64,000 nt of DNA. It comes from Candidatus Methylacidiphilales bacterium (lineage in GTDB: Bacteria > Verrucomicrobiota > Verrucomicrobiia > Methylacidiphilales > JAAUTS01). Shown piece by piece: positions 25,052-42,388 of this stretch. The stretch spans positions 14,627 through 78,626 of the forward strand of contig JAQTNW010000002.1 in the NCBI GenBank assembly GCA_028713655.1, read 5' to 3'. The position numbers were made by a program, and so were the translations under genes. How positions within the stretch are numbered: the stretch's first letter is position 1; every line of letters starts with the position of its first letter. Under the pieces are notes generated by a model that was not told the origin of the DNA, did not search any database, and saw only the letters and a program-made list of their open reading frames with translations.

Positions 25052-25086
25052 CCCGGCAATGATCCACCCCAAACAAGGCAACTTCT

Positions 25087-25896
25087 ATGAATCCACTCTT
25101 TACCCTCGAAAATGAAGCCGCCGTCGTGATCGGCGGCACGGGCGTGCTCGGCGCCACCATCGCACTGGCATTGTCGGAAGCGGGCGCGCGCGTCGCTGTG
25201 TGCGGACGTTCCGAAGAACGAGGTGCGGTCTGCGTCGAAGCCATCAAAAAGGCGGGTGGCAAGGCGGTCTTTGTCAAAGCGGATGCCCTGTCCAGGGAAA
25301 GCCTGGCGCTGGCTCATCGTGAAATTGAAACCCGTCTGGGCCGCCCAAGCATTCTCGTCAATGCGGCAGGTGGCAACGATCCCAAAGCGACGGTATCTGC
25401 GGATCATCCCTTTGACACAATCAACCTTCCCGACTGGCAGGCCTGTTTTGATGTCAATCTCGTCGGCGGCGCGCTGCTCCCCTGCCAGGAATTCGGCGCC
25501 GCAATGGCCTCACGCGGCAAAGGCAGCATCATCAACATCGCCAGCGTCTCCGCGCATTTGCCGCTCTCGCGGGTGGTGGCCTACTCCGCGGCCAAGGCGG
25601 CGGTGCTGAACCTCACGCAATTCCTCGCGCGCGAATGGGCGCCGCACGGCGTGCGCGTCAATTCGATCACTCCTGGATTTTTCCCGGCCGAACAAAACCG
25701 GCGTCTGCTTTTCAACGAAGACGGCACGCCGACCCCGCGCTCCAGGTCCATCCTCGGCCATACTCCGATGGCGCGATTCGGCGAACCGCGTGAACTCACC
25801 GGCGCCGCCATTTTTCTCGCATCACAAAAAGCCAGCAGCTTTGTCACCGGTTCGGATATCCGTGTGGACGGAGGCTTTTTATGCCAGACAATCTAA
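25087..25896 (+). CDS. SDR oxidoreductase, probable fructuronate reductase (mannonate-forming)
   Basis: The 269-residue short-chain dehydrogenase has the cofactor motif GGTGVLG near residue 17, NAAGG, catalytic Ser in NIASVSAHLPLS, and the Tyr-X3-Lys pair in VAYSAAKAAVLN. An SDR of this sort next to uxaC commonly does the job of UxuB, reducing D-fructuronate to D-mannonate. Position between uxaC and the LarA homologue supports that role here. It is not a member of the long-chain mannitol dehydrogenase family that UxuB of E. coli belongs to. The next gene starts 16 bases inside its end. Confidence 0.85.
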   Translation: MNPLFTLENEAAVVIGGTGVLGATIALALSEAGARVAVCGRSEERGAVCVEAIKKAGGKAVFVKADALSRESLALAHREIETRLGRPSILVNAAGGNDPKATVSADHPFDTINLPDWQACFDVNLVGGALLPCQEFGAAMASRGKGSIINIASVSAHLPLSRVVAYSAAKAAVLNLTQFLAREWAPHGVRVNSITPGFFPAEQNRRLLFNEDGTPTPRSRSILGHTPMARFGEPRELTGAAIFLASQKASSFVTGSDIRVDGGFLCQTI

Positions 25897-27179
25897 AACC
25901 AGTCGCTGGAGCAAGAACAGCAAAGGGCGCTGCGCTGGCTGACAAGGAAGTCCGTGAAATTATCGGCCGTGCGCTTGATCCGGCTGCCTATCAGGGCAAG
26001 CGCATCCTGCTGATTGTTCCCGACGGCACCCGCACCGCGCCGGTCGGGTTGTTGTTTCGGGAAATTTTTGAGAGGCTCTCAACCGTTGCGGCCAAAATCG
26101 ACGTCATGATCGCCCTCGGCACGCATCCGCCGATGAGCGATGAGGCGATTCGCGCCCGCATGGAAATCAGCCTTGAGGAACGCCGTTCCAAATATGCTCG
26201 GGTCGAGTTCATCAATCACGCATGGAATTCACCCTCCGCGCTCCACCGGCTGGGGGTCATTCCCGCGAAGGAAATCAGCGATTTGTCAGGCGGGCTCTTC
26301 GCCATGGACGTGCCGGTCGAGATCAACCGGCGGATTTTCGATTACGATCAATTGATCATCGCAGGGCCGGTTTTCCCTCATGAGGTCGTCGGCTGCTCGG
26401 GCGGCAACAAATACCTCTTCCCCGGCATCGCCGGACCCGAAATTCTCAATTTTTTTCACTGGCTCGGCGCGGTGATCACCAATCCGATGATTATCGGGAA
26501 CAAATGGACGCCCGTCCGCAAGGTGGTGGATCGCGCAGCCGCCATGGTGCCGGTGGACAGGTTTTGCTTTTGCATGGTCGTGGACCAGGCGGGGCTGGCC
26601 GGCCTTTATGCCGGAACACCCGAAGCCGCGTGGGACGCGGCCAGCGATCTTTCCCGCGAATTGCACATCGTTTACAAGGAACACCCGTTCCACACCGTCC
26701 TGTCCTGCGCCCCGAAGATGTATGACGAGCTCTGGACCGGCGGGAAATGCATGTACAAACTCGAACCCGTGGTCGCCGACGGGGGCGAGCTGATCATCTA
26801 CGCCCCGCACATCACGGAAGTTTCGGAAGTGCACGGCGCCCTTATCCGGGAAATCGGCTACCATTGCCGCGATTACTTTGTGAAGCAATGGGACTGTTTC
26901 AAAAATTATCCCTGGGGCACTCTGGCCCATTCCACGCATGTCCATGGGATCGGCACGTACAAGGACGGCATTGAAACCCCGCGCATCCGGGTCACGCTGG
27001 CCACCGGCATCCCGGAAGCGGTCTGCCGCAAGATCAACCTCGGCTGGCGCGATCCGGCTTCGATCGACGTGGAAAGTTTTGCCAACCGCGAGGACGAAGG
27101 CGTCCTGCTTGTCCGAAAAGCAGGGGAAATGCTTTATCATCTGGACAACCCGCCGGGCTGGGCCGGGGGAAAAGCATGA
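25881..27179 (+). CDS. LarA-superfamily nickel-pincer hydroxyacid epimerase (probable gluconate/mannonate 2-epimerase)
   Basis: The 432-residue protein keeps all residues used by lactate racemase LarA for nickel-pincer nucleotide and catalysis. These are Asp48 and Arg51 in PDGTR (LarA Asp72/Arg75), His82 in GTHPPM (His108), His167 in PHEVVG (His174), Lys177 in GGNKYLF (Lys184) and His193 in FFHWLG (His200), with LarA spacing of 10 and 16 exactly kept between the last three. The LarA family includes a D-gluconate 2-epimerase that interconverts gluconate and mannonate. Sandwiched between a fructuronate reductase-like SDR and gluconokinase, that activity fits best. The cofactor-making LarB, LarC and LarE are not in this window. 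Confidence 0.85.
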   Translation: MPDNLKPVAGARTAKGAALADKEVREIIGRALDPAAYQGKRILLIVPDGTRTAPVGLLFREIFERLSTVAAKIDVMIALGTHPPMSDEAIRARMEISLEERRSKYARVEFINHAWNSPSALHRLGVIPAKEISDLSGGLFAMDVPVEINRRIFDYDQLIIAGPVFPHEVVGCSGGNKYLFPGIAGPEILNFFHWLGAVITNPMIIGNKWTPVRKVVDRAAAMVPVDRFCFCMVVDQAGLAGLYAGTPEAAWDAASDLSRELHIVYKEHPFHTVLSCAPKMYDELWTGGKCMYKLEPVVADGGELIIYAPHITEVSEVHGALIREIGYHCRDYFVKQWDCFKNYPWGTLAHSTHVHGIGTYKDGIETPRIRVTLATGIPEAVCRKINLGWRDPASIDVESFANREDEGVLLVRKAGEMLYHLDNPPGWAGGKA

Positions 27180-27676
27180 GCCTTTTCGTGGTCATGGGTG
27201 TCTCGGGCTGCGGCAAGAGCAGCGTTGCGGATCTGCTGGCGAAAAAAACCGGCGGCCAATTTCTCGATGCCGACAGTTTCCATCCCGCTGCTAACAAGTC
27301 AAAAATGGCCGCGGGCATTCCTCTCACCGACGAGGATCGTTGGGATTGGCTGGACACCTTGAATCATGAATTGAAACGGCAGGCCGCATCGTCGGCGCGT
27401 CCTGTTTTTCTGGCTTGTTCCGCGCTACGCCAGGCTTACCGCGACCGCCTGGCCGACGGGTTGGATCACTTGCGTTTTATTTACCTGAAAGGCTCGAAGG
27501 AATGCATTCGCGCCCGTTTGGAAACCCGGCAGAATCACTACATGCCGCCCACGCTGCTGGAAAGCCAGTTCGCAACCCTTGAGGAACCTGAAGATGCGAT
27601 TCTTGTGGATATCGAGCGGCCGCTGGCTGAAATCATCGGCAATATTTTGCCACAACTTTCCCGGTCCAAACCTTGA
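27176..27676 (+). CDS. gntK: Gluconokinase
   Basis: The 166-residue kinase has a P-loop GVSGCGKS at residues 8-15, the GQFLDADSFHPAANKSKM substrate strand, a DEDRWDWLDTL block and ARLETRQNHYMPPTLLESQ. All are hallmarks of GntK-type gluconokinase. It phosphorylates D-gluconate to 6-phosphogluconate with ATP. The start overlaps the LarA homologue stop by four bases (ATGA). As the last gene it closes the proposed glucuronate-to-6-phosphogluconate route. Confidence 0.92.
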   Translation: MSLFVVMGVSGCGKSSVADLLAKKTGGQFLDADSFHPAANKSKMAAGIPLTDEDRWDWLDTLNHELKRQAASSARPVFLACSALRQAYRDRLADGLDHLRFIYLKGSKECIRARLETRQNHYMPPTLLESQFATLEEPEDAILVDIERPLAEIIGNILPQLSRSKP

Positions 27677-29137: not shown

Positions 29138-30454
29138 TTAAGTGTTGCTTTCTCGGCACAAAAACTTTCGCAGAATGTTACAATCCTCCAGACAACCGGC
29201 CTTCAATTGCCGCAGCCGCGGTTGGTACACGATCCAGAACCCGCCCGCCAGCCAGGCCAGCAACAGAGGCGCCGTGGGGGCAACTTTCCAGCCTTCGAAG
29301 TTGATCGAAAACAGCGTGATCCCCCAGAAAAACAAAAGCAGCAGATTGCGACGAAGCTTCAGTCCGGAATCCGAACTGGCCATGACCGCAATCCACCAGC
29401 CGGCGCCCAGCAAAAGATCGTAATACATCACATAGGGCGAAATCAGCAAAACCAGGCTGATGGCAAACAGCAGCGCATGTTGGGAGCCGACAGCGCGCAA
29501 CGGCCGCGACCAGCGCACAAGCAAAGCGGATGCGGCGAACAGCAGCATGGAAAAAACGGAAAAGGCAGCTTCGGCCAATCCCCGCGCCGTGGGCGAGGAA
29601 TCGTGAAGGCTCAAAAGAAAATAACGCAGGCTCTGGTTCAGATTGAAGATTTGGTTCTGGCCGCCGCAGAGCAGATTTTTCATGACACCCAGCCAGGCCA
29701 GATGGGAATCGATCCCGCAGGTCCAGAGGCCGAGCAGGAGAAATCCCAGCGACCCGAGGCAGAGGCCCGAAAAATAGCGCCAATGCCCGGCAAGCAACAT
29801 GAAGACACCCGGAGCCAGAAGGAATTGCGGTTTGTAAAAAAGACAGGCGGCGAGCAAGCCGGCGAGAAAGGGGCGGTTCCGGCAGAGCAGGAGCGCAGCC
29901 CCGGCGTAGATAAAAAAAGAAAGGGCGGCGTTTTGTCCGACAATCAAGCCATAAAAAAACACCGGCAGGCCCGCCATGAAAAGCAAGCCCGGCCTTCCCG
30001 CGAGAGAGGGGAAGCATTTCAAAATGAAATAGGCCCCTGCCAGGTAAAGGCCGACAGAAGCTGCCAGCCACAGGGCTGCAAATGTTTTATAAGGCAGTGT
30101 CACGAGCGACGAAACCATGAGAGCGTGCAGGGGCGGATATAAATAGTTGAACCCGCTGGTCTTCCCGAAATTGGGGCCTCCAAAAAGTTCACCCATGCGG
30201 TCGCCAAGTTTGCTGTCCCGGTAGAGATCCTGCATCCGGCCTTCGGCCACCATTTTTCCAGCGGCGTAGTGCTGCGTCAAATCGCTGCTGAGGATGCGCC
30301 CGTTCGTGGCATTAAATCCACTGGCGCCAAACCAAAAGGCGATCAGCCCGGCGCTGAAGATGCAGATGGAGGCGAGGCTCAGGACCTTCAGAAGCAGGAG
30401 TCCGGGGTCCGAAAAGGGACTTTTTGAAAGCGGTGTTGAATCCGAGGAAGGCAT
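29138..30454 (-). CDS. DUF2029/GT87-like multi-pass glycosyltransferase
   Basis: The roughly 438-residue integral membrane protein has about 10-12 transmembrane segments. The large first loop reads SSDLTQHYAAGKMVAEGRM with an acidic residue pair, then FNYLYPPLHALM, a signature of the DUF2029 (GT87) mannosyltransferase-like family. Such GT-C enzymes use polyprenyl-phosphate sugars as donors. The start is at 30454, following a weak leader in the longer frame. It opens the glycosylation-like cluster and is divergent to the 186-residue protein. Substrate unknown. Confidence 0.75.
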   Translation of the reverse strand: MPSSDSTPLSKSPFSDPGLLLLKVLSLASICIFSAGLIAFWFGASGFNATNGRILSSDLTQHYAAGKMVAEGRMQDLYRDSKLGDRMGELFGGPNFGKTSGFNYLYPPLHALMVSSLVTLPYKTFAALWLAASVGLYLAGAYFILKCFPSLAGRPGLLFMAGLPVFFYGLIVGQNAALSFFIYAGAALLLCRNRPFLAGLLAACLFYKPQFLLAPGVFMLLAGHWRYFSGLCLGSLGFLLLGLWTCGIDSHLAWLGVMKNLLCGGQNQIFNLNQSLRYFLLSLHDSSPTARGLAEAAFSVFSMLLFAASALLVRWSRPLRAVGSQHALLFAISLVLLISPYVMYYDLLLGAGWWIAVMASSDSGLKLRRNLLLLFFWGITLFSINFEGWKVAPTAPLLLAWLAGGFWIVYQPRLRQLKAGCLEDCNILRKFLCRESNT

Positions 30455-30509
30455 GGCGTGATAAAAAATATTTTGTGAACCTGTCGGGCTGTGCTTATGA
30501 TCTCCATTT

Positions 30510-31070
30510 ATGAGTGGAATTGCCAGTCCGGAATGGAACATCAAAACACGGTCCTCAGTCTGCCAAATCAGCGGCCGCGCCTTCCAGGAGGATGAACCTT
30601 TTTATACATTGCTGATCGACACACCCGAGGGCCTGTTGCGGACCGACATGTGCCAGGAAGCATGGGAGAGCCGCCAGCCTGCGCCGGAGATGGTTTCGAA
30701 TTGGAAATCGATCTTCAAGCCCGACCCGCCGGTATCGCCGGATGCCGTGCGCAAGGAGGATGCGGAGTCCGAATTGCGGCGACTCCTGGAAAACCTCACG
30801 CCGGAAAACCACAAGACCTGTTATCTCCTGGCCCTGCTGCTGGAGCGGAAGCGCATTTTGAAGTCGCGCGAAAAAATCATGCGGAACGGGCAAAAGCTTG
30901 TGGTGTACGAGCATGCGGTGACGCAGGAAACGCTGCTGGTGCCGGAGATTGAGTTCAAGCTTACGGAAATGGACGGGCTGATCGCGGAAATCAGCAGTGG
31001 ACACGGGATGGTGTTCCGGGTGAACAATCCGGTGGAGCCAATTCCCGAGGAAGCGACCGCCCAGACGTAA
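30510..31070 (+). CDS. Conserved hypothetical protein (186 residues)
   Basis: The protein begins with WNIKTRSSVCQISGRAF, then EPFYTLLID, and has a conserved WKSIFKPDPP phrase. A C-terminal half with many charged residues (KSREKIMRNGQKLVVYEH) follows. I recall this pattern from Verrucomicrobia proteins of about 180 residues without an assigned role. Cysteines near the start and in MCQEAW suggest a metal or zinc site. No signal peptide or membrane segment. It starts 55 bases from the divergent GT87-like gene. Confidence 0.65.
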   Translation: MSGIASPEWNIKTRSSVCQISGRAFQEDEPFYTLLIDTPEGLLRTDMCQEAWESRQPAPEMVSNWKSIFKPDPPVSPDAVRKEDAESELRRLLENLTPENHKTCYLLALLLERKRILKSREKIMRNGQKLVVYEHAVTQETLLVPEIEFKLTEMDGLIAEISSGHGMVFRVNNPVEPIPEEATAQT

Positions 31071-31511
31071 GCAGTTTTTGACCTTTTACCGCTGAGAACG
31101 CGAAGTGTTTAACACCAAGACGTCCGCCAGAGGACGGATTCGCCCCGTGTGCGAACAAGAGATGCAAAAATGAGGTGAAAGCTTAAAACCTGTCTTAAAC
31201 CATCCCCCTGACAAGGGGGAAGAAAAGGGGTTTTATTTTGCCCGCGAAACACGCGAAAATCACAAAAGGAAGCCAAAATCCATTTCTCTCACAAAGCCGC
31301 GGAGGGCACGAAGGGAAACGGATGGAAATGAAGAATTCAGGATGTGGAATTCAAACTTCTGGATTTGATCTTGTTTCGGAAGTGCAAGCGCACAAACTGC
31401 CTTGATGCAGCGCCAACGGCAGGTTGTTCACAATTGGGTTGCCTTTGCAAGAGTTCTACAACACGTTGCAATTGCCGCGCGCGGTTGAACAATACTGTGA
31501 GGTCAAAAAAT
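31071..31511. other. Gene-free stretch with repeat fragments
   Basis: No supported gene. It has dispersed-repeat text around 31090-31130 and 31230-31310, a short CCCCCT/AGGGGG dyad near 31205-31222 and a low-complexity stretch. The AT-rich open frame from 31344 is non-conserved before the methionine at 31512. Confidence 0.5.
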
Positions 31512-32009
31512 ATGCCGCTATATAACATCGCAGCCCTCGTAATCCGGTTCTTTACACTGTCCTGGCTAATTACCGGATTATGCACTATGATTCCCCAGAT
31601 GGTGTCTATTCCCTATGACTTTTCGTTGGGCACAGCATGCTGTCTTTCTACGCCAGTATTTTTATTTGCTCTGGCTTTTGTGTTTTGGCGTTTTGCCCCT
31701 TCTATATCGCGCCTTATGATTCGAGGTATCGAAACTGACATTACGTTTACAACCCTCACAAGAGCGGATTTATATTGCTTTGCCTTTGTTTTGGTTGGCC
31801 TTTGGTATTTTTTATCCAGCATTCCCAACGCCCTTAACTGGATACACTATTTACTGAAGATTGCTGCAGAGGGTCAAAAAAATGAGACTTTAGGGAGTTC
31901 TGATATTTACGCGCTGTCTCAAGCCATGATTTCTATGGTCTTTGGTGTTGCATGTATTGTAGCCGCCCCCCGTTGGGCGAAACTTTTATTAAGAAATGAA
32001 AAGAACTAA
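31512..32009 (+). CDS. AT-rich four-pass membrane protein, unknown
   Basis: A 165-residue hydrophobic protein with four predicted membrane spans (about residues 8-30, 45-65, 85-105 and 140-155). The start is the ATG at 31512; the longer frame from 31344 has cysteine-rich text that looks like non-coding DNA. Base composition is far more AT-rich than the neighbours, as in the next small gene, which points to acquisition. No family is recognised. Confidence 0.55.
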   Translation: MPLYNIAALVIRFFTLSWLITGLCTMIPQMVSIPYDFSLGTACCLSTPVFLFALAFVFWRFAPSISRLMIRGIETDITFTTLTRADLYCFAFVLVGLWYFLSSIPNALNWIHYLLKIAAEGQKNETLGSSDIYALSQAMISMVFGVACIVAAPRWAKLLLRNEKN

Positions 32010-32083
32010 CCAGACTGCGGAGAGCGTCGCCCGCCGAAGCTAGCGAAAGTTGGCCATTACGAACGCGACGGAATAAAAACATT

Positions 32084-32326
32084 ATGATCAAACTCTTTAT
32101 ATCGTTAGCAACTCGTTATGCGCGTTTCTCGCTTCGCAATTCATCAGGTCCCCGAGTATCGGCATTTGTCTGTGCCGCATTACTCTTTGCCGGTTCACGT
32201 CACATATGGATTTACTTTGTTAAATCAGAAGGTGATTCCAATTTATGGTTTGGAGCACTGATGATTGTTGTTGCCTTATTTAATTTTCAAAACCTGGGAT
32301 TTAAACAACTGTTTGATGAGAAATAA
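32084..32326 (+). CDS. Small AT-rich membrane protein, unknown
   Basis: An 80-residue protein with a hydrophobic middle (VSAFVCAALLFAGSRHIWIY) and a second short hydrophobic stretch (ALMIVVALFNF). It is AT-rich, like the gene before it, and is followed at 32360 by a strong hairpin. No function can be given. Confidence 0.5.
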   Translation: MIKLFISLATRYARFSLRNSSGPRVSAFVCAALLFAGSRHIWIYFVKSEGDSNLWFGALMIVVALFNFQNLGFKQLFDEK

Positions 32327-32359
32327 AAATATCGAGCCAGGCCGCCGAATCCTTCACAC

Positions 32360-32388
32360 ACCGGCACTTTACGGCTTGTGCCGGTTTT
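32360..32388 (+). terminator. Rho-independent-like hairpin
   Basis: ACCGGCAC (32360-32367) pairs perfectly with GTGCCGGT (32378-32385) over a ten-base loop, and is followed by TTTAA. It lies 33 bases after the small AT-rich gene. Confidence 0.6.
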
Positions 32389-32580
32389 AAGTTCCTAAGT
32401 TTTACCTTCCTCTGCGCTGGTTCTAGCCTTTTGCGTCTTTTGCGCATTTTCGCGGCCAAAGCCAGTTTCTGGTTTTCCTCCGCGGCTTTGTGCGAGATTC
32501 TGTGTTAGCTTTCAAGAGTTTGAGATGGAGTAAGAGTAGGATTAAGAGTAAGATTTCCATCCGCGTTTGAGAACGGTTTT

Positions 32581-34254
32581 TTAGGGAATCTCCGACAGGC
32601 GCCAGGCCTGGTCCTGCCAGGTGATCCGGTAGTTGCGGCCACCGGCTTTTCGTACAAGTACGCTGGTGTTGCCCGGTTTATCGAAGGACAGGAAAATCAA
32701 TTGCTCGCGATGTTGTAGGCCGGACAACTGCTCTTCGTAAAAACCCATGTAAAACGGCTGCGGCCCAAACCGATTGGAGGCGTTGGCGCGGGTGAGCGAA
32801 TACCCGATGGCGCAGGGCACACGGAACAGGGAGCCATAGTTGCAGGAACCCAGCAGTATCGAGGCTTCGTCGTCGCGCGGGTTTCTGAACGGCAGCACCG
32901 CCGCAAAGTATTCGCCGGGAGCCTGCAACTGCCGGGCCAATTGCCAGAAGGATTCCGCTTTGCCTGACAAATAAAAATTGCGGTCGGCATTCAGAGGCTG
33001 GATGGTCGGCGCCGGGGAGGAAAACAGGGTGCCGCAAAACACAATCATCCCGATACCGAAATATAAAACGGCTTTTTTCCAGAAAATGCGCATCCCGTAG
33101 ATGGACATCCAAAGGTGCAGGCCGAACAACAGCAAAAAGCCTTCCTTGAAAGGCCAGCGCAGGGAACGGAATACGGGCAGGCTGGAAAAAAGGTGCTGCA
33201 CCGGCGCCGGGCGGACAAGAAGAACGAAGGCAAAGGCGATAAACAACGCCAGGCAGATTGTTTTGCCCGTCCAGGAGGCAGGCCGGCACAACAGGAGGCA
33301 AAAGGCGGCGGGACAGAATAACAAGCCGCAAGCATCCGCTTGTGGACCACCGACGGCAAGAGGCGCGCCGTCCAGGGCGCTAAGGCCGCCAAGAAACCAG
33401 GAAAGCGGGACGTGCCAGAACGGGATTTTTCCCTCCTGCAGCATCGAGGCTGACAACCCGTCGGCACGCGTGGCATGGGCAAACCCTGACAAGAATGGCA
33501 GGACAAAGGGCAGCAGAATGATGAATGCCAGGGCAAGTGAGCCAAAACAGCGCGCAGCCGGGACGATGTCCCGTTCCGCAACCGAAAGGCCCAAAGCCAG
33601 CAGCAACACTGCGAAGTTTTCAAACAGGAACGGCCCGGGATGCCCTCCCATGCAGGCATGAAGTTCCGCAAGGACGAAAACAGCAATCCCGATTTTGGTG
33701 TCGCGGCAAAGCAAGCCATAGAGCAACCACGGCAGGGCTGAGGTATTTGCCAGATAGAGCACCCAGGAAGAGCCGATCAGCAATTGGTACACGCCATAAG
33801 TCCAACTCAGGCTCAGGAGAGCCGACCAGCAGGGTGAAACCGCGCCCACCCACCGCTTCTGGGCTTCCAGGGCGCAGAAATAAAATCCCAGCGACTGAAC
33901 GATCAACAGAAAAGAACCCCAGAGTTCCACAATCCAGCGTTCAAGGCCCGCGGAAGCCAGAAGCGAAATCAACAGCAAAACGGGGTGCCAACAATTGATG
34001 AAGCTGGGGTCGCGCAGCAGGCAATAGCCCCCGCCAAAGATATAGTCATTGTAGAAAGGATTTTGAAAATGCGCGAGGCGGCGTCCGATTTCGGCCATGA
34101 CCGGCTGGAAATAGCACAGGTTGTCGTTCGTCAAAAAAAAGAACGGGCGCCACAACTGGAGCAGGAGCAGGACAAGCAGATTGGCTGCCAGCAGGCAGTG
34201 CGCGGGACGGGGGATGCCGCCCCATTTTGCAAAACCGGTTTGAGTGGAAGTCAT
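32581..34254 (-). CDS. Large multi-pass membrane protein (GT-C-like)
   Basis: The roughly 557-residue protein has about 12 membrane segments and no signal peptide. Its first large loop reads FLTNDNLCYFQPVMAEIGRR with acidic residues after the first span, as in GT-C-type glycosyltransferases such as YfhO/PMT-like proteins. The C-terminal 150 residues are soluble and presumably external. The start is placed at 34254 (MTSTQTGF), 105 bases from the divergent GT2 gene. I do not recognise an exact family. Confidence 0.6.
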   Translation of the reverse strand: MTSTQTGFAKWGGIPRPAHCLLAANLLVLLLLQLWRPFFFLTNDNLCYFQPVMAEIGRRLAHFQNPFYNDYIFGGGYCLLRDPSFINCWHPVLLLISLLASAGLERWIVELWGSFLLIVQSLGFYFCALEAQKRWVGAVSPCWSALLSLSWTYGVYQLLIGSSWVLYLANTSALPWLLYGLLCRDTKIGIAVFVLAELHACMGGHPGPFLFENFAVLLLALGLSVAERDIVPAARCFGSLALAFIILLPFVLPFLSGFAHATRADGLSASMLQEGKIPFWHVPLSWFLGGLSALDGAPLAVGGPQADACGLLFCPAAFCLLLCRPASWTGKTICLALFIAFAFVLLVRPAPVQHLFSSLPVFRSLRWPFKEGFLLLFGLHLWMSIYGMRIFWKKAVLYFGIGMIVFCGTLFSSPAPTIQPLNADRNFYLSGKAESFWQLARQLQAPGEYFAAVLPFRNPRDDEASILLGSCNYGSLFRVPCAIGYSLTRANASNRFGPQPFYMGFYEEQLSGLQHREQLIFLSFDKPGNTSVLVRKAGGRNYRITWQDQAWRLSEIP

Positions 34255-34273
34255 GGTTGAATTTTCATGGCAT

Positions 34274-34292
34274 GTGTGAGATAAGCAGGCTA
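34274..34292 (+). repeat. 19-base motif shared with the triple-hairpin element
   Basis: GTGTGAGATAAGCAGGCTA here is identical to 40658-40676, the last arm of the second triple-hairpin element, and the preceding 13 bases are also similar. It may be a trapped right end of the element or a shared binding site. It lies in the divergent promoter gap. Confidence 0.6.
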
Positions 34293-34358
34293 AGCTGAGA
34301 TTCACATACACGAGCCCAAAAGTCAAAGGCTGGTTGACATTCAGATCGCTAACGCTAA

Positions 34359-35126
34359 ATGGCACATAAAATGAATGAGGATGCCCGCCCGCCCGATTTT
34401 TTCCTGGTTATACCCAGCTACAATGAAAGCGGCCGGTTGCCCGCTTATTTAAGCTCCCTGCTCGAGAACCTGTCCGCCCTGCCCTTCAGCACGGTTGTGC
34501 GGGTGGTCGATGACGGCTCCGACACCGGCGATTTGGAAAGCTTGAAAAAAATGCAGCGTTTCCCACAGACAACCGGAAATTGCAAATGCCCGGCCATCCT
34601 TGAGCTTCCGAAAAACCTCGGGAAGGGAAATGCCATCCTGGAAGGCTGGCAAAGCTCCGGTGGCGCAGCCTGGGTGGCTTTTGTGGATGCCGACGGCTCG
34701 ATACCACCCGAGGAAGTCTGCCGCCTGTTTCAATTGGCGCGGCAAAACCCGGGTTTCTCCCTTTTTGCTTCGCGGGTTAAAATGCTGGGCCGGAAGGTTG
34801 AAAGAAAATTCTCCCGGCACCTGCTGGGCCGTTTTTTTGCCGCAATGGTCGGCTGCTCGATTTGCCCCGATATCTACGATTCCCAATGCGGTTTTAAAAT
34901 TATCCCGAGGGAACATTACAATCGGATTTCCACGCTGTTGACGGAACGGAAATTTGCCTTCGACCTGGATTTGCTGATGGCGCTCCTGTCGAACCAACTG
35001 CCTGTCATAGAGGTTCCCATCGACTGGCTGGAACGGAAAGGCAGCAAAGTCAAAGTGCTGCGTGACTCGCTCGCGCTGGCGGCCAGCGTCCTGCGTCTCA
35101 AACGCAAATATCAACCATGGACCTGA
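34359..35126 (+). CDS. Family 2 glycosyltransferase, polyprenyl-phosphate sugar synthase-like
   Basis: The 255-residue protein has the GT2 pattern: VIPSYNESGRLPAYL, VDDGSDTGD, LPKNLGKGNAILEG, and the Asp-X-Asp in FVDADGSIPP. It has no membrane span. It resembles dolichol/undecaprenyl-phosphate mannose or glucose synthases (DPM1-like). It would make lipid-phosphate sugar for the GT-C proteins around it. The start is the ATG at 34359, with 34371 also possible. The stop lies 10 bases inside the methyltransferase gene. Confidence 0.85.
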   Translation: MAHKMNEDARPPDFFLVIPSYNESGRLPAYLSSLLENLSALPFSTVVRVVDDGSDTGDLESLKKMQRFPQTTGNCKCPAILELPKNLGKGNAILEGWQSSGGAAWVAFVDADGSIPPEEVCRLFQLARQNPGFSLFASRVKMLGRKVERKFSRHLLGRFFAAMVGCSICPDIYDSQCGFKIIPREHYNRISTLLTERKFAFDLDLLMALLSNQLPVIEVPIDWLERKGSKVKVLRDSLALAASVLRLKRKYQPWT

Positions 35127-35839
35127 TCGAATCGCAACAGCTTGGCCCCGAGCAGGCCTGCTCCCACTGGTATTACCGGAGCAAGTTTAAATTGCTTGAA
35201 AAAAGCCTGGCATCCGTTTTGCGGAATCATCCGTCGCCGAAGCTGGCCGATTTTGGGTGCGGGGACGGGATTTTTTTGAAACTCATTGAGCGTTCCGGAT
35301 TGATGAGCGCGGAGCAGATGACGGGCATTGACTCCGGCTATGCCCGGGCGCAGCAAAGCGGCGAAATCCGGATGCTGCCTGAATTTCCGCCTGGTGGAAA
35401 ATTTGACGTCATTCTGATGATGGACGTGCTTGAGCATGTCGAGGATGAGCAGGCTGTATTGGCGGAAGTGCTCAAGCATCTGAACAGCGGCGGCACACTT
35501 TTTATCACCGTACCCGCATTGCCGATCCTCTGGTCGCGCCATGACGAAATCCTTCTGCATTACCGGCGCTACACGCTCAGCAGCCTCAAGAGTCTGTTGT
35601 CTGCTTTTCAGGAGCTGAAAATTTTCAGGCTGCATTATTATTACGGATTGCTGCTTCCCGTGGCGGCGCCGCTGCGCTTTTTCAAACGGCATTCCACGGA
35701 AACGCAGACGGACCTTCAACCTGCGCCCGCATTGCTCAACCTTTTGTTGGTAGCGCTTTTCGAGTTGGAATTGCATGTGGCGCGTTGGAATCGCCTGGCC
35801 GGACTTTCGGCCGTGGCGGTTTGCCGGTTGGAAAAATAG
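35117..35839 (+). CDS. Class I SAM-dependent methyltransferase
   Basis: The 240-residue protein has the AdoMet motifs LADFGCGDG (motif I), DVILMMDVLEHVEDE (motif post-II) and GGTLFITVPA. It overlaps the GT2 gene by 10 bases, so the two are co-translated. Its target may be a glycan or lipid-linked sugar, from context, but the sequence does not prove it. C-terminal helices are amphipathic. Confidence 0.85.
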   Translation: MDLIESQQLGPEQACSHWYYRSKFKLLEKSLASVLRNHPSPKLADFGCGDGIFLKLIERSGLMSAEQMTGIDSGYARAQQSGEIRMLPEFPPGGKFDVILMMDVLEHVEDEQAVLAEVLKHLNSGGTLFITVPALPILWSRHDEILLHYRRYTLSSLKSLLSAFQELKIFRLHYYYGLLLPVAAPLRFFKRHSTETQTDLQPAPALLNLLLVALFELELHVARWNRLAGLSAVAVCRLEK

Positions 35840-36035
35840 CAATTCAACCGCAAAGAGGCATTCACCGCAAGTCGCCGAGAGCGCAGAAAAACACATTTCT
35901 ATCAGCAGATTAGGCATATCTTGGGAAGCCTTCAGCACTCGGCGAGGCGGGTGGCACACCCCCCGAAGCGGTCGCCGCAGCGACCATTCTGCCCCTCTTG
36001 ATGGAGGGGATTTGGATCGCTTAGCAAAGCATACC

Positions 36036-37943
36036 TCAACGCGCGGCAGGCAGGTTGACCCGGTAAAGGCGGTAGCCTGAGGCAAGGTGAGGCGGGAGCG
36101 GCACGGGAATGAGCCAGTCCGGACATTGCCCGTTCAACAACTGGCTGTAGAAAACCGTTTGATTCCCGGGTTTGGAATACACCATGGGTTCGCCCGAGTG
36201 CGGAGCGAGCAGCAACAGGGTGATATGTTTCGAGGCAAGGAGTTGCCGGGTTGTATCCGCATTTGAGGCCGTCATGGCATGGTAGGCAAACAGAATGCCA
36301 TCTTCATTCCGGTGGTTGGGCGTGGCGACAACCTCATAGGGAGTACGATAAATGATCTCGGTTCCAAAATCCTGGAACGCCAGGATGCGCTGTTTCGGAG
36401 GCAATCCGCTTTCCCGGTTGAGCCAATCACACAAGGTGTGGATCGATTCAACTTTCCCGGGGGACGAGGCGTTGGTTGCGGCGGGTGCTGTCTTTTCAGC
36501 CAATGCCAGCTTCAAGCCGAACCCGAGGAACAGGTTGGCGGTAAAAAAGGCCCCCATCATTGAAACTCTCAAGATGGAAAGCCTGACGCCCTGGTATCGC
36601 TCGGAAACCCATTCGAGGCAAGACCCTGTCAATTGCACAAAAAGAGGCAGCGCAACGGCCTCGGCGTACAAGACCCATCTGTATTGATAGAGCGCCAGTC
36701 CGCAAAAGACGAGCGTGGCAAGCAACAGATACAGGTCTTCCGTTTTGAATGCCGCGCCGCGCACAAAAAGACGCCAGACGGCCCAGGGTATGGCGAAGAG
36801 GCATGGAAACAGCCAAAGGATGACGGCCCCAGGGAAATCGTGCCAGGAGGAAAAAAGAGGGCGCTGTTCCTGGACCAGGTTCGCCCAGATTTTCATGGCT
36901 TCGGGGCTGACATTGGCCAGCGGCCCCAGAAGGAAGCGCGGGTTGGCCAGTTCGGCTGCGACGGCGGCAACGCCTGCTCCCGCAAGCCCGGCAACAATGC
37001 AAGCTGTTAGGGACTGCGGACACCGGCCTTTGCTATTCATAAAAGCCAGTACAGCCCAGAATGCGGCGACAACCGAAAAAACAAGCAAATGCACCAGCGA
37101 CATCCTGTCCAATTCCCCGGCATTCCATTCATCAGGCCGGGTTTGAATGGAATAGAGCAGGGTGCTGCAGGCCAGGAGGCTGGTACTAAAGAAAAGATTT
37201 TTGTGCAGGGCGAGTTTTTCCCCCCGGAGCCAGAGCATGCCGAGTACCAGGAAGTTAATGGCTGTGATGACAAGTGTTTCGATGCTGATGGAAAGCGAAA
37301 CGGCCTGCACAAGCCCGGCGACCCAGGCGGCTTTGGGTGAAAAGGGCAGGCACAAACAGCGAAGCATGCAGCCCATGTTCAGGGCCAGCAGGAAGAACAG
37401 CAGGGCATGGTGGTCGGGGCGCCCCGCTGCGCAGTAAAGAAGTATGCCCGGTTGTGTGGCTAGCAGAGGGCAGAGCATTCCCAGCCAGCCTGGCTTAACG
37501 ACAGGTCGGCAGGCCCAGACGATGGCCAGGAGGCCCAGAACATAAAACAGCGGGCTGATCAGGATACCCGACCAGAGCAAGGCGGTTTTGAAATCCGTGA
37601 AGCAGCTTCCGGCCCCGGCGCAGAGCAGCAGGATCAAATCCAACAGGCGGCTCCATTGTGACGTTTCCGATTTGTCAGGGTTGCTGCGCGGAACGGTCGT
37701 GTCATACCAGTTGCCGGTATCGCGCAGGTGTTGGACGCGCATGAGGCGCGTGTAACCGTCCGCGTCGAGGAAATCACCAGGCTTGGCAAATATTCCAGCC
37801 TGATAAATGAACATCTGCATGAGAAACAGGCAGAGTCCGAAGCCAAGAACAGTTGTTAGCCGGATGCTTTTTATGGTTTTTTTACCCGGAAGAGATGATA
37901 GTCGGCCTGCAGGCCGGGCGGCAAAGGTATTTCCGAAAGCCAA
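36036..37943 (-). CDS. STT3-like GT-C membrane protein, tandem copy 1
   Basis: The 635-residue protein (start TTG at 37943, uncertain) has about 12 spans. An external first loop reads FLDADGYTRLMRVQHL with a DXD-type pair, then WYDTTVPRSNP. A GRPDHHALL block and a soluble C-terminal part (about 150 residues) follow. Layout matches STT3/GT66-like GT-C proteins. It is a paralogue of the next gene, which has the same DPDGYMRLLRVEHL and GRPDHHSLL blocks. A real start between 37943 and the first span cannot be found, since ATG is absent there; coupling to the upstream gene, which it overlaps by 73 bases, may set it. Confidence 0.75.
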   Translation of the reverse strand: MAFGNTFAARPAGRLSSLPGKKTIKSIRLTTVLGFGLCLFLMQMFIYQAGIFAKPGDFLDADGYTRLMRVQHLRDTGNWYDTTVPRSNPDKSETSQWSRLLDLILLLCAGAGSCFTDFKTALLWSGILISPLFYVLGLLAIVWACRPVVKPGWLGMLCPLLATQPGILLYCAAGRPDHHALLFFLLALNMGCMLRCLCLPFSPKAAWVAGLVQAVSLSISIETLVITAINFLVLGMLWLRGEKLALHKNLFFSTSLLACSTLLYSIQTRPDEWNAGELDRMSLVHLLVFSVVAAFWAVLAFMNSKGRCPQSLTACIVAGLAGAGVAAVAAELANPRFLLGPLANVSPEAMKIWANLVQEQRPLFSSWHDFPGAVILWLFPCLFAIPWAVWRLFVRGAAFKTEDLYLLLATLVFCGLALYQYRWVLYAEAVALPLFVQLTGSCLEWVSERYQGVRLSILRVSMMGAFFTANLFLGFGLKLALAEKTAPAATNASSPGKVESIHTLCDWLNRESGLPPKQRILAFQDFGTEIIYRTPYEVVATPNHRNEDGILFAYHAMTASNADTTRQLLASKHITLLLLAPHSGEPMVYSKPGNQTVFYSQLLNGQCPDWLIPVPLPPHLASGYRLYRVNLPAAR

Positions 37944-39700
37944 ACCGGGATTTTTTTATCCAGCAATTGGCGGTAGAACGAATTTTTGTTCCCGCTTTGA
38001 TCGTAGAACCCGGCCTCGGCAGGGCTCCCGTCGATCAGTACAAGCGTGACTCCCCGTTTGTCCAAATCGAACCTTGCCTCGTCGGGATCGCTGCGATTCA
38101 TCAGGTCATAGGTAAACAGCACGCCGTCCGCATTGCGGTGGTAAGGCGAACCCACCACTTCGATCCCCGTGCGGTAGAGGATCTCCGGGCCGTAATCGAG
38201 GTGGGTCAGGATGCGCTGGTGTGGCTCCCGCGACAGGGGCTGGCTTTTGAGCCAGCCTGCCAACTGCATCAGTGACCCGGCTTTTGCAGCTATGGCGGTC
38301 GGCTGATCCGGAGCATGCGCTGTACCCGACGGCCGGTTGAAAAGCAGGACAAACGGCAGATAAGCGGCGGCGAAAAACATGACAAGAAGGGTTCTCGCGG
38401 GAGAAAACCACTTGGGGTTGATGCGGGGTTCCAGCCAATCCAGCACCCGGGAAAGCAATTCCGTAAGTGGAAAAATCAGCATCAGCTCCGCGTAGGTCGC
38501 CCAGCGGATTTGGGCCAAAGTCAGGACGACAAAGAGGGCAATCCCGAACGCAAAATAAACGCCGACGCAAAGTTGCGCGGAATCCCTGATGCGGTTCTTG
38601 AAATCAAAGAACAGGAACGGCGCAACGAGAAAAATCGGCCCCAGCCACGTCAAGGTCTGGGGCAGCAGCGCTGAAGCGGAAGCGGCCAGGGGCGCCACTT
38701 CCCTGACATTTTTCAACCATAATTGCGCCAGTCGGGGATCAACGTTTGCATATGGCCCATGGAAAAAACGGGGCGAGAGAATATAAATGACAACGAGGCA
38801 AACAACCGCCCCGGCGGCGCCTGCCAACAGGCGTTGCGGCCACGATGCGATCACGCGCGGATTTTTTTCAAGGCGGGCCATCACAAACCAGAACAGGGTT
38901 TGGGCTGAAAACATTGCCAGATTCAACCCGCAGAGGCGGTCATACACGTCAAGGCGCAGGAGATGATCCGGCGTTTCAACCAGGAGCGCAACACACACAC
39001 CACAGGTTAGGGCAAAGGACACGAGGAGATTTTGCCGGGCCGCATCCGGCCGCCGCGCCACCCATGCGAGCCCAAGCGCCAACTGCGCCAGCAGGCATAC
39101 GGTCAAAGCTTCAACGCTGATCCATAGCATGAACGCCTGCATCAGGCCGGCGCAGATGAGAAGACGGTTGGAAGGGGGCCGTGTGAGAATGCGCAACATT
39201 TGGCCGGTGATGATGATAAAGCAAAACATCAGCAGACTGTGATGATCCGGCCTTCCGGCTTCATAGTAGTCGATGAGTGCGGGCTGGCAGAGAAAGAACA
39301 AACTCAAATGCATTCTGGATGCGGGTTTGAACAAAACGGCGCCGGCCCACGCCAAAGCCAGCACACTGAACGTTTGAACAACCGGACTGAACCAGACACC
39401 CCACCAGAACAGGGCGTTTTTCAGGCCGAGGAAGGGCCACAGAGGCAATGCTCCCAGAATCAACAGCACATCCAGAGGCCGGCTCCACTGCGAGCTTTCC
39501 CCGTGTGGCGCGTTGCTCTCGGGAACGGTTTGATCAAACCAATGCCCGCTGGAAAGCAAATGCTCAACGCGAAGGAGGCGCATGTAACCGTCGGGGTCCG
39601 CGAGTTCGCCATACGGTACCTGCGCGGAAATGCGATACAGCAGGGCCTGGATGACCAAAAAAAACAATGCGAGCGCGAGATGCGGGTAGTAGCGGCTCAC
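37871..39700 (-). CDS. STT3-like GT-C membrane protein, tandem copy 2
   Basis: The 609-residue protein is a full paralogue of its downstream neighbour: DPDGYMRLLRVEHL, GHWFDQTVPESNAPHG, SSQWSRPLDVLL, GRPDHHSLL, then a C-terminal soluble region with LDYGPEILYRTGIEVVG. In the STT3 family the first-loop acidic pair binds the metal and lipid-linked sugar. This suggests an oligosaccharyl- or glycosyltransferase acting in the envelope. The tandem pair diverged strongly, so they may use different acceptors. It is encoded directly upstream of the lipoprotein's convergent partner. Confidence 0.78.
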   Translation of the reverse strand: MSRYYPHLALALFFLVIQALLYRISAQVPYGELADPDGYMRLLRVEHLLSSGHWFDQTVPESNAPHGESSQWSRPLDVLLILGALPLWPFLGLKNALFWWGVWFSPVVQTFSVLALAWAGAVLFKPASRMHLSLFFLCQPALIDYYEAGRPDHHSLLMFCFIIITGQMLRILTRPPSNRLLICAGLMQAFMLWISVEALTVCLLAQLALGLAWVARRPDAARQNLLVSFALTCGVCVALLVETPDHLLRLDVYDRLCGLNLAMFSAQTLFWFVMARLEKNPRVIASWPQRLLAGAAGAVVCLVVIYILSPRFFHGPYANVDPRLAQLWLKNVREVAPLAASASALLPQTLTWLGPIFLVAPFLFFDFKNRIRDSAQLCVGVYFAFGIALFVVLTLAQIRWATYAELMLIFPLTELLSRVLDWLEPRINPKWFSPARTLLVMFFAAAYLPFVLLFNRPSGTAHAPDQPTAIAAKAGSLMQLAGWLKSQPLSREPHQRILTHLDYGPEILYRTGIEVVGSPYHRNADGVLFTYDLMNRSDPDEARFDLDKRGVTLVLIDGSPAEAGFYDQSGNKNSFYRQLLDKKIPVWLSEIPLPPGLQADYHLFRVKKP

Positions 39701-39721
39701 GCTGGATGGCCTGATGAAGGT

Positions 39722-40372
39722 TTAACGCTGCGGCGCCTTTGTGGGCGCGGCAGACGCCGGAGCTGCGATCCAGCCTTGTTTCACGAAATAACTCTTCAAA
39801 AAGTCCGTCACCAGGCGGGCAATCCGCGCTGCGTCCTTGTCGAGGGCGGCATTTGGATTTTCTGCTTCCAACTTGAAAGCATACGGCTGGCCCGACGTGT
39901 CAAAAATCATCAGGCGCTCGGGATTTGTTTTATTATTAAGGGCCGCAAACTCCACATAAGCCTCGGAAGTGTGCTGTCCCGGGCCGTTTCCAAGTGAAAG
40001 GCTCAGGGCCTGGTTGGTTTCGTCCACTTTAAAGAGCCGTCCATCAATCAGCCAGAAATTGCCGGTTGGCAGCGGCAGATCCTTGCCATAGGGATAGGCG
40101 GGGAGAACTTCCCGGTTCAGCAATTCCACCAGCCGCCGGGTCACTGCGGTGCGGAGTTGTTCGCGAAACTGCACCAATTGGCCGCGTTTGCCTTCCATTT
40201 TGACCGTGGAGAGGTCCATATGAAAATCATAAACATAAATGGCGTCGGGACGGATGTTTGCGGCGGCAACCGTGGGCGGCGGCGGCTGGGGTTTGTTCCC
40301 CACACCGGTGGAGGCACAGCCGGCCAAAACCACAAGAACGCCGGCCCAAAGAACGGGAATGGGAAAACGCAT
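39722..40372 (-). CDS. Lipoprotein of unknown function
   Basis: The 216-residue protein has a lipobox LAGC near residue 19 after a hydrophobic signal (VLWAGVLVVLAGC), then a proline-rich stretch (PQPPPPTVA). The remainder has IRPDAIYVYDFHMDLSTVKM, a phrase found in DUF4410-like lipoproteins. It ends 21 bases upstream of the STT3-like pair in the same direction, so it may be in their operon. It is likely anchored in the inner or outer membrane. Confidence 0.75.
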   Translation of the reverse strand: MRFPIPVLWAGVLVVLAGCASTGVGNKPQPPPPTVAAANIRPDAIYVYDFHMDLSTVKMEGKRGQLVQFREQLRTAVTRRLVELLNREVLPAYPYGKDLPLPTGNFWLIDGRLFKVDETNQALSLSLGNGPGQHTSEAYVEFAALNNKTNPERLMIFDTSGQPYAFKLEAENPNAALDKDAARIARLVTDFLKSYFVKQGWIAAPASAAPTKAPQR

Positions 40373-40750: not shown

Positions 40751-42388
40751 ATGAATCGGGACGTCATGATAACAGCCATGCGGGAGGTGCTGCAATCCAT
40801 CCAGGCCAGGAAATCCCTGGCGGATGTGCTGCAGGAAATTCTCAAGTGGGCCTGCCAGCTCACCAACAGCATCCATGGCTCATTTGTCACCGTGGACCAT
40901 GAACGCGGCGTACTATTGATCACCAGCACACATGGGCCGGACTGGACCCCCGAGAAGAAAAGCCACACCATGAAAATCGGCGAGGGAATCACCGGCCTTG
41001 TCGCGGCGACAGGCAAACCTTATCTTTGCTCCGACACCACGCTCGATCCTCTTTACGTAAGCCTGTTTGATTTTGTCGAAAGCGAGCTGGCGGTGCCCGT
41101 CATCGCCCAGAACAAGGTCTGGGGCATCATCAATTTCGACGGGCGAAAAAAACACGAGTTCAACGAAACCACGGTTTCGGACATGGAATTATTCGCCCAA
41201 CTGACTGCTGCCGCTATTGATATTCATCTGAGCTGGAGCCGGGAACAGCGCCTCCAACAGGAGCTGATGCAGGCGGAAAAATTGTCCTCGTTCAGCAAAA
41301 TGCTTTCCGGGTTTGCGCATGAGATCAATAATCCGCTTGCCGCCATTCTGGGTGGCGCTTCTGTCCTGGCCTATGACAGCCCTGATTCCGGGCAGCGGCA
41401 GGAACTGGAGGCCATTGCCGCCGAAGCGCAGCGGGCCGCGACGCTGGTAAAAAATCTCCTGGCCTTTTCCCGGCGGCAAACCGCCAAAAAGGAGGTCCGG
41501 GACATCAATGTGCTGGTGCAGGACGCATGCGCTCTCGCCTGGCATCAACTCAAACAAAAGGGCATCAGCCTGGTTGTGTCGCTGTCTGAAAAGCCGCCCC
41601 ATGCGGAAGTCCAGCCGCTGCAAATCCAGCAGGTGCTCTTGAACCTTTTCAGCAATGCGGAAAGCGCCATCGCGGAAGAAGGCCGTCCCGACGGCGAGAT
41701 CCGGGTGGCAGTCAGCGAAGAAAATGGAGAGGTGTTGATTGAGGTGGCGGACAACGGCGTTGGCATGGAATCCGAAACAAGACGTTCGATCTACGACCCG
41801 TTTTTCACCACCCGCGATGTCGGCAAAGGCGCCGGACTTGGCCTGTCGATTGCGCACGACATCCTGAGCTTCCATGGAGGCAGCATCACCTGCAAAAGCG
41901 GATTGCATGCGGGATCGATATTTTACATCCGACTGCCCGCGAGCCGGATGCAACCGGAAGCGGCTTCTGTGATCCCACCCCCGGCGACCTCGAAAAAAAG
42001 CAAAATACAGCGTCCGGCCATAACCATGCGGGTTCTGGTTGTGGACGATGAAGACCAGATTCGGACCGCTCTGGAACGCTTTCTAAGTTCCAAAGGATTT
42101 CACGTCGAGACAGCCGTCGATGGAATGGCGGCTCATTCCCTGGCCCATGAGCAGGATTTTGACGTGGTGTTAAGCGACATCCGGATGCCGCGAATGGATG
42201 GATTTGAGTTGTATCGGGCGTTGAACGAGATCAACGAGTTGTACGGCAGGCGCTTTGTTTTTATGACGGGGAACCTTATTACGTCAGAGACCCATGAATT
42301 TATCCAAAACACCAAGTGTCCGTGCATTGAGAAACCGTTTCAATTCGATGTGATTTTCAAAACCCTTTTGGAACAGTCGTGCGTGTGA
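40751..42388 (+). CDS. GAF-domain hybrid histidine kinase with receiver
   Basis: The 545-residue protein has a GAF sensor domain (about 1-160; ITGLVAATGKPYLCSD), a HisKA/HATPase module, and a receiver. His190 in FAHEINNPL is the phosphorylation site. N-box NLFSNAESAI, DNGVGM and GKGAGLGLSIAHD form the ATP site. The receiver begins MRVLVVDDEDQIR and Asp476 in LSDIRMP is the acceptor. No membrane span, so it is a cytoplasmic sensor. No output regulator lies beside it. Confidence 0.9.
   Translation: MNRDVMITAMREVLQSIQARKSLADVLQEILKWACQLTNSIHGSFVTVDHERGVLLITSTHGPDWTPEKKSHTMKIGEGITGLVAATGKPYLCSDTTLDPLYVSLFDFVESELAVPVIAQNKVWGIINFDGRKKHEFNETTVSDMELFAQLTAAAIDIHLSWSREQRLQQELMQAEKLSSFSKMLSGFAHEINNPLAAILGGASVLAYDSPDSGQRQELEAIAAEAQRAATLVKNLLAFSRRQTAKKEVRDINVLVQDACALAWHQLKQKGISLVVSLSEKPPHAEVQPLQIQQVLLNLFSNAESAIAEEGRPDGEIRVAVSEENGEVLIEVADNGVGMESETRRSIYDPFFTTRDVGKGAGLGLSIAHDILSFHGGSITCKSGLHAGSIFYIRLPASRMQPEAASVIPPPATSKKSKIQRPAITMRVLVVDDEDQIRTALERFLSSKGFHVETAVDGMAAHSLAHEQDFDVVLSDIRMPRMDGFELYRALNEINELYGRRFVFMTGNLITSETHEFIQNTKCPCIEKPFQFDVIFKTLLEQSCV

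Follow-up and report, generated by a model that had tools for sequence, protein, structure and literature searches.

STT3-type oligosaccharyltransferases are, to our knowledge, known in bacteria mainly as the PglB of a few lineages, and the C-mannosyltransferase DPY19, whose fold is related, uses a lipid-phosphate monosaccharide, a donor that would suit an adjacent glycosyltransferase of family 2 (GT2). One phylogeny places bacterial STT3 homologues inside euryarchaeal AglB (PMC4973528). In Archaeoglobus fulgidus AglB, the metal ligands are described as Asp47 together with Asp161 and His163 of an Asp-His-His motif, Glu360 of the TIXE motif takes part via waters, and the Ser/Thr pocket is formed by WWDYG and DK/MI (PMC8342417). 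On the side of possible acceptors, Flp1 of Aggregatibacter actinomycetemcomitans, a pilin of the Tad (Flp, type IVc) kind, is reported to be a glycosylated protein (PMC6182317), with RcpC implicated (PMC12307814) and no transferase named in the portions of text examined. Here we describe two genes, STT3a and STT3b, that lie in tandem in a 64,000-nucleotide stretch of a Candidatus Methylacidiphilales genome (the window; part of contig C2 of an assembly of 3.29 Mb in 90 contigs, completeness 95.45), near one end of an 11-kb region at 29138-40372. The pair belongs to a widespread yet unnamed bacterial family of integral membrane transferases of the STT3/AglB type. We give even chances to the proposal that this family, with an apparently changed acceptor pocket, acts on an extracytoplasmic protein, most likely the subunits of Tad pili.

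That the pair is of the STT3 type is well supported and, in our view, highly probable. The two proteins share 36% identity. Neither of them, nor the GT-C-like protein encoded in the same region, matches any Pfam family at a meaningful score, and the Pfam STT3 family (PF02516, cut-off 24.5 bits) has no match anywhere in the genome at E<=0.001. STT3a matches the archaeo_STT3 model TIGR04154 with an E of 9e-4 and 17.7 bits, far under its 450-bit cut-off; at E<=0.01, 49 of the 65 family members match TIGR04154 and six match PF02516. When a profile of the family was searched against the PDB, the only matches at E<0.01 were two archaeal STT3 C-terminal domains (E 0.0012 and 0.0081), with x-x-D-F-G aligned to their W-W-D-Y-G. 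With a narrower profile (A8) the same archaeal domain appeared only at E 0.11, followed by chance-like Rab matches, and PDB searches with the single sequences of STT3b and of the homologue at locus L026 returned no match. The sequence link to STT3 therefore rests on the wider profile with its E of 0.0012, the TIGR04154 matches, and the fold.

The modelled fold is the whole STT3/AglB fold, with a GT-C membrane part and a C-terminal globular domain. An AlphaFold2 model of STT3b built from 65 sequences has a predicted local distance difference score (pLDDT) of 93.0 and a predicted template modelling score of 0.93. In Foldseek the top match is yeast Stt3 (E 8.5e-14), ahead of AglB and human STT3 (both 2.1e-13), with PglB at 7.8e-8, and the Z scores from VIA-align descend from AglB (27.2), yeast Stt3 (27.1) and human STT3A (26.8) through DPY19 (23.6) and PglB (21.9) to Pmt1-Pmt2 (19.1) and ArnT (16.6). 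The AglB and yeast Stt3 matches cover the whole length of STT3b, including the C-terminal globular oligosaccharyltransferase domain. Like A. fulgidus AglB (PDB 3waj and 7e9s; short-form C-terminal domains 3vgp and 3vu0), the family has the first Asp, an Asp-His-His second motif, a TIXE-type Glu and a short C-terminal domain, and the pair is close in size to the short AglBs, given as 591 and 593 residues (PMC3703281). Unlike AglB, the family lacks the WW of WWDYG, falls under the STT3 cut-offs, is bacterial, and is Tad-linked. PglB of Campylobacter lari (5ogl, 6gxc) shares the overall fold but is more distant than AglB or Stt3, and the D-H-H second motif and missing WW set the family apart from it. 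DPY19 (7zli) is also alike in fold, but its Z lies under those of AglB and Stt3, and no sequence match to DPY19 was found.

Residues were paired with those of AglB by motif and order, not by residue superposition. The first-motif Asp, the second DXD-type motif and the TIXE/SVSE-type Glu are all present in the family, and the corresponding columns are close to invariant (D37 64/64, D152 64/64, H153 63/64, H154 63/65, E334 63/65), as are R399 and G504 (65/65 each). STT3a shares the motifs of STT3b in the alignment. A preliminary description of the region, which proposed a glycosylation cluster containing two STT3-like paralogues, took a lack of catalytic acidic residues in the GT-C proteins as evidence that would count against it; D37, D152 and E334 are kept in the pair, and the STT3 likeness is borne out by profile and by fold. 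The WWDYG motif is replaced by THLDYG in STT3b and AFQDFG in STT3a, with loss of the Trp-Trp, and in the family as a whole column 502 is D in 45 sequences and N in 16, column 503 is F in 36 and Y in 19, and column 504 is G in 65 of 65. Read from these alignments, the family seems to have a full metal site and an altered acceptor pocket. We reject the pair as a canonical GT66 oligosaccharyltransferase, since WWDYG is absent and the curated cut-offs are not reached; its predicted activity is that of a variant that works like a GT66 enzyme. A recent duplication as the origin of the pair is likewise rejected, with STT3a sister to the gene at L035 (support 100/96).

The family extends well beyond this lineage. 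We define 64 related loci, of which 62 named loci come from scanning genome contigs with a profile made from a four-row alignment and two, on Sphingomonas and Novosphingobium plasmids, from tblastn; a scan of the genome contigs with STT3b alone found no relative, and a six-row alignment held no usable conserved stretch. By record titles the loci fall in Nitrospirota, Pseudomonadota, Bacillota, Planctomycetota, Gemmatimonadota, Chloroflexota and Verrucomicrobiota, many being metagenome-assembled genomes, some with short contigs, in which single phylum assignments can err. Close relatives are scarce nearby. A search of 60 genomes with the pair gave matches in nine, its own included, of which only its own (G000) and G003 are close and full-length, with a cut copy in G039. 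In a sample of the phylum, three of 387 genomes match at E<=1e-10, one being its own and the other two matching over the N-terminal 200-230 positions only. On a tree of 65 sequences the verrucomicrobial members form a clade (100/97) within a supported set of 11 (100/98), to which a deltaproteobacterium, a Phycisphaerales bacterium and Bacillota contribute Tad-linked sequences. If the assignment is right, this is a second bacterial STT3-type family, widespread and tied to Tad pili, with a metal site that appears intact and an acceptor pocket that appears changed.

Several members of the family have features of their own. Paired nearby STT3-like genes also occur in other phyla (L036, L039, L053, L057, L067 and L080), and at L057 one copy is split across two frames. 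The full-length homologue on the Sphingomonas plasmid (L020:7905-9674, NZ_CP155751.1) is annotated, apparently in error, as an AcrB/AcrD/AcrF family protein. The window genome encodes a third, more distant STT3-like protein on contig C18 (L003:547-2178, L092:7686-9317), which has PWWLSP at the WWDYG place and is followed by a gene for a trypsin-PDZ (DegP-like) protease; its family (A9) is common to G002-G005 and other genomes, and a profile comparison shows it to be a homologue of the pair (E 5.6e-37).

The link to Tad pili, which spans several phyla, comes from gene neighbourhoods and from co-occurrence. Clustering of the neighbours at the 64 loci recovers a CpaC-type secretin, RcpC/CpaB, a CpaE-like protein, T2SSF, TadE and prepilin peptidase. 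At 32 of these loci at least one pilus gene lies near the STT3-like gene, and clear Tad genes lie within 10 kb at 24, once eight loci with a prepilin peptidase alone are set aside (L050, L060, L062, L064, L065, L066, L069 and L078). At 21 loci the STT3-like gene has a gene for a Flp-like pilin at a distance of 0.5 to 7 kb, and an AglJ-like GT2 is present at 31 (representative match to TIGR04182 E 5.2e-55, under the curated cut-off). At L033 and L075 the genes run on one strand from PAP2 through the STT3-like gene, GT2, prepilin peptidase and secretin to the T2SSF genes, which looks like one operon. We compared co-occurrence in 49 family-bearing genomes, drawn from 50 of the 62 named loci: rcpC (PF16976) is present in 43 of them, against 17 of the 60 genomes sampled around the window and one of 14 named controls. 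In these family-bearing genomes, 22 of 61 STT3-like genes have rcpC within 13 kb on their own contig, as against one of 66 genes of a control GT-C family (PMT_2; PF13231, E<=1e-10), a difference with a Fisher's p of 1.6e-7, uncorrected for kinship. The sole PMT_2 gene near rcpC adjoins an STT3-like gene, in G439.

Other observations weigh against a Tad-directed function. The Tad label is clustered on the 65-sequence tree, with 12 changes against 20.2 when shuffled, and the loci are therefore not independent; at least nine of the 12 changes fall on well supported branches, and the label is thus clustered yet spread. No rcpC match was found in six of the 49 family-bearing genomes, and at 40 of the 64 loci, many of them on short contigs, the available sequence contains no clear Tad gene. 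The pair in its own genome and its homologue in G003 do not lie beside Tad genes. The rcpC and TadE matches of the window genome are on C4 and C46, with no Tad gene found within about 10 kb of the pair on C2; the C4 locus (about C4:33936-45511) is comprised of RcpC and three TadE matches by profile, with its remaining Tad genes called from order and size only, and a pattern search of it recognised no Flp pilin. Since the pair and the Tad locus lie on different contigs of this genome, the substrate can only be inferred here. Finally, the idea that family-adjacent Flp pilins bear N-X-S/T is not supported, as the motif is present in only nine of 36 such pilins. The ordinary sequon therefore does not mark the acceptor, a finding that would fit a changed pocket.

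Taking both sides together, the acceptor of the pair is probably a protein, and the leading candidates are Tad subunits, at even chances or somewhat less. The fuller proposal, that a dedicated, sequon-independent STT3-type family glycosylates Tad (Flp) subunits in several phyla and that the verrucomicrobial pair does so in trans, is put forward tentatively. Were it true, it would provide a named candidate enzyme for Flp-type pilin glycosylation, together with a new acceptor chemistry. We found no publication that connects an enzyme of the STT3 type with Tad pili in a literature that is without most subscription journals and all preprints, and some Tad papers checked for glycosylation words hold no mention of pilin glycosylation. 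Named strains of Pelagibius marinus and of Sneathiella species carry the gene, which makes the proposal testable.

The mechanism that we envisage is modelled on AglJ-AglB and on GT2 enzymes of the dolichol-phosphate mannose synthase type. A GT2, in the window perhaps that at 34359-35126, would charge polyprenyl phosphate with a sugar at the inner membrane face, a flippase would turn the lipid-linked sugar to the outer face, and the STT3-like enzyme would pass it on to an extracytoplasmic protein without reading the acceptor site as N-X-S/T. Tad pilus subunits, either Flp pilin or TadE-type pseudopilins, would be the likeliest acceptors, and with the Tad locus on C4 the pair would act in trans in its own genome. 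It is conceivable that the two STT3-like copies serve two acceptors or two donors. The window holds candidate genes for the first and last steps and none for the flippase or the acceptor.

The pair may instead be a general protein-glycosylation transferase that serves many secreted or outer-membrane proteins and, in this lineage, is not specially tied to Tad pili. The missing Tad linkage in G000 and G003, the lipoprotein gene that heads the run in the window, and the PD40 and OmpA-family genes that follow the homologue at L035 would all agree with such a role. We consider it rather unlikely, as rcpC is present in all three same-order genomes that have a close homologue (p 0.02 against 17 of 60) and the nearest larger clade includes Tad-linked members.

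A reading that we find unlikely, and somewhat more doubtful than general protein glycosylation, takes the pair as the GT-C part of a three-component system (GtrA, GtrB and a GT-C enzyme), which would use polyprenyl phosphate as the carrier of single sugars destined for a surface polysaccharide or lipid rather than for protein, with nearness to Tad genes reflecting shared surface-adhesion islands. Such systems with GT-C enzymes are established, and the acceptors described for them are polysaccharides (PMC11127046). A GT2 and a GT-C protein are present in the window, the GT2 lying near the pair, and GtrA is encoded at six related loci (L020, L021, L026, L030, L073 and L074); none of the ten window proteins scanned is a GtrA, a scan that did not extend to the remainder of the genome. 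Against this, the GT-C of the pair is of the STT3 kind, with a fold closest to protein-modifying enzymes (oligosaccharyltransferases at Z 24-27 and DPY19 at 23.6, against 16.6 for ArnT), it has the C-terminal oligosaccharyltransferase domain, and the Tad linkage is far above that of the control GT-C family.

That the whole 11 kb forms one new glycosylation pathway, with the GT87, GT-C, GT2 and methyltransferase genes included, is very improbable: six transferase-type genes do fall within it, but the strands alternate and, in relatives, neither the GT2 nor the GT-C gene has the other, or an STT3-like gene, in the flanks available. The preliminary description had presented the region as a single cluster closed by a lipoprotein gene. 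All the genes that it named are open frames where it placed them, and Pfam backs its GT87, GT2 and methyltransferase, but the alternating strands (Table 1) exclude a single 11-kb transcript, and the lipoprotein gene is instead the first of a minus-strand run that continues with STT3b, 21 bases downstream, and STT3a. The protein-glycosylation route that it considered plausible remains so, and is now better supported, for the tandem pair with its STT3/AglB fold and conserved catalytic residues, and not for the whole 11 kb.

Table 1. Genes of the region around the tandem pair, in window coordinates
Feature	Position	Strand	Remarks
GT87 family protein	29138..30544	-	PF09594 E 2.8e-19
ORF186	between GT87 and GT-C genes	+	
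GT-C-like protein	32581..34254	-	own family; weak oligosaccharyltransferase fold match; no meaningful Pfam score
GT2, polyprenyl-phosphate sugar synthase kind	34359..35126	+	PF00535 E 1.3e-16
Class I S-adenosylmethionine methyltransferase	35117..35839	+	PF13489 E 3.6e-17; overlaps GT2 end
STT3a, second STT3/AglB-like transferase	36036..37943	-	up to 635 aa; start uncertain
STT3b, STT3/AglB-like transferase, first of tandem pair	37871..39700	-	609 aa; fold AglB Z 27.2
Lipoprotein gene, head of STT3b-STT3a run	39722..40372	-	lipobox LAGC in sequence

STT3b and STT3a overlap by 73 bases, provided that STT3a starts at the TTG at 37943, the sole usual start codon before 37820. The lipoprotein has a DUF4410 match (E 3.1e-5) under the Pfam family cut-off. 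The GT2 and methyltransferase genes, which overlap by 10 bases, are a plus-strand pair separate from the minus-strand STT3 run. The GT-C gene is divergent from GT2, its likelier start being the ATG at 34254 rather than 34365, from which a longer frame would overlap the GT2 start; GT87 is another 2 kb away, and both genes are only weakly tied to the rest. In the 1.5-kb part between ORF186 and the GT-C gene, the sole open reading frame scanned (31344-32009) has no recognised family. Between 29000 and 41000, promoter-like sites number eight against 5.8 by chance, which is near chance, and terminator-like sites 31 against 19.9; neither was used.

The PDB matches of the window GT2 are dolichol-phosphate mannose synthase and its relatives (E 2.1e-7). 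A GT2 specific to the pair is rejected, as matches at E<=1e-15 occur in 15 of the 60 genomes, its own included, and 12 of these have no close STT3-like gene. The GT2-methyltransferase pair is also found in G010 and G042, where no close STT3-like pair was found, and among the GT2 relatives the methyltransferase accompanies GT2 at L110 and L111 only. The methyltransferase is 32-33% identical to methyltransferases at the two plasmid STT3-like loci and has homologues at L027, L057, L059, L061, L070 and L078, so that it may modify the donor or the glycan. The GT-C protein family is present in 13 of the 60 genomes, its own included, with no other cluster gene in the roughly 1.5-kb flanks available; its model is middling (pLDDT 76.9) and has weak matches only, the best being a yeast oligosaccharyltransferase subunit (Foldseek E 4.7e-3).

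Further neighbours recur at some of the related loci. At the closest relative (L035:11818-13557) the PD40-repeat and OmpA-family genes are TolB- and Pal-like. In four Nitrospirota loci (L027, L029, L046 and L070) the STT3-like gene is flanked on its other side by a gene for a DUF362 protein. A gene for a PRK07208-type flavin adenine dinucleotide enzyme is found nearby at L021, L026, L030, L073, L074, L077 and L083, and its combination with GtrA at L026, L030, L073 and L074 is a second recurring context. In the window itself, a gene for a GAF-histidine kinase-receiver protein (40751-42388) is divergent from the lipoprotein gene, and a run at 23648-27676, comprised of glucuronate isomerase (UxaC), a short-chain dehydrogenase, a Lar_N-domain protein and a small kinase, appears to be a locus for hexuronate or gluconate use.

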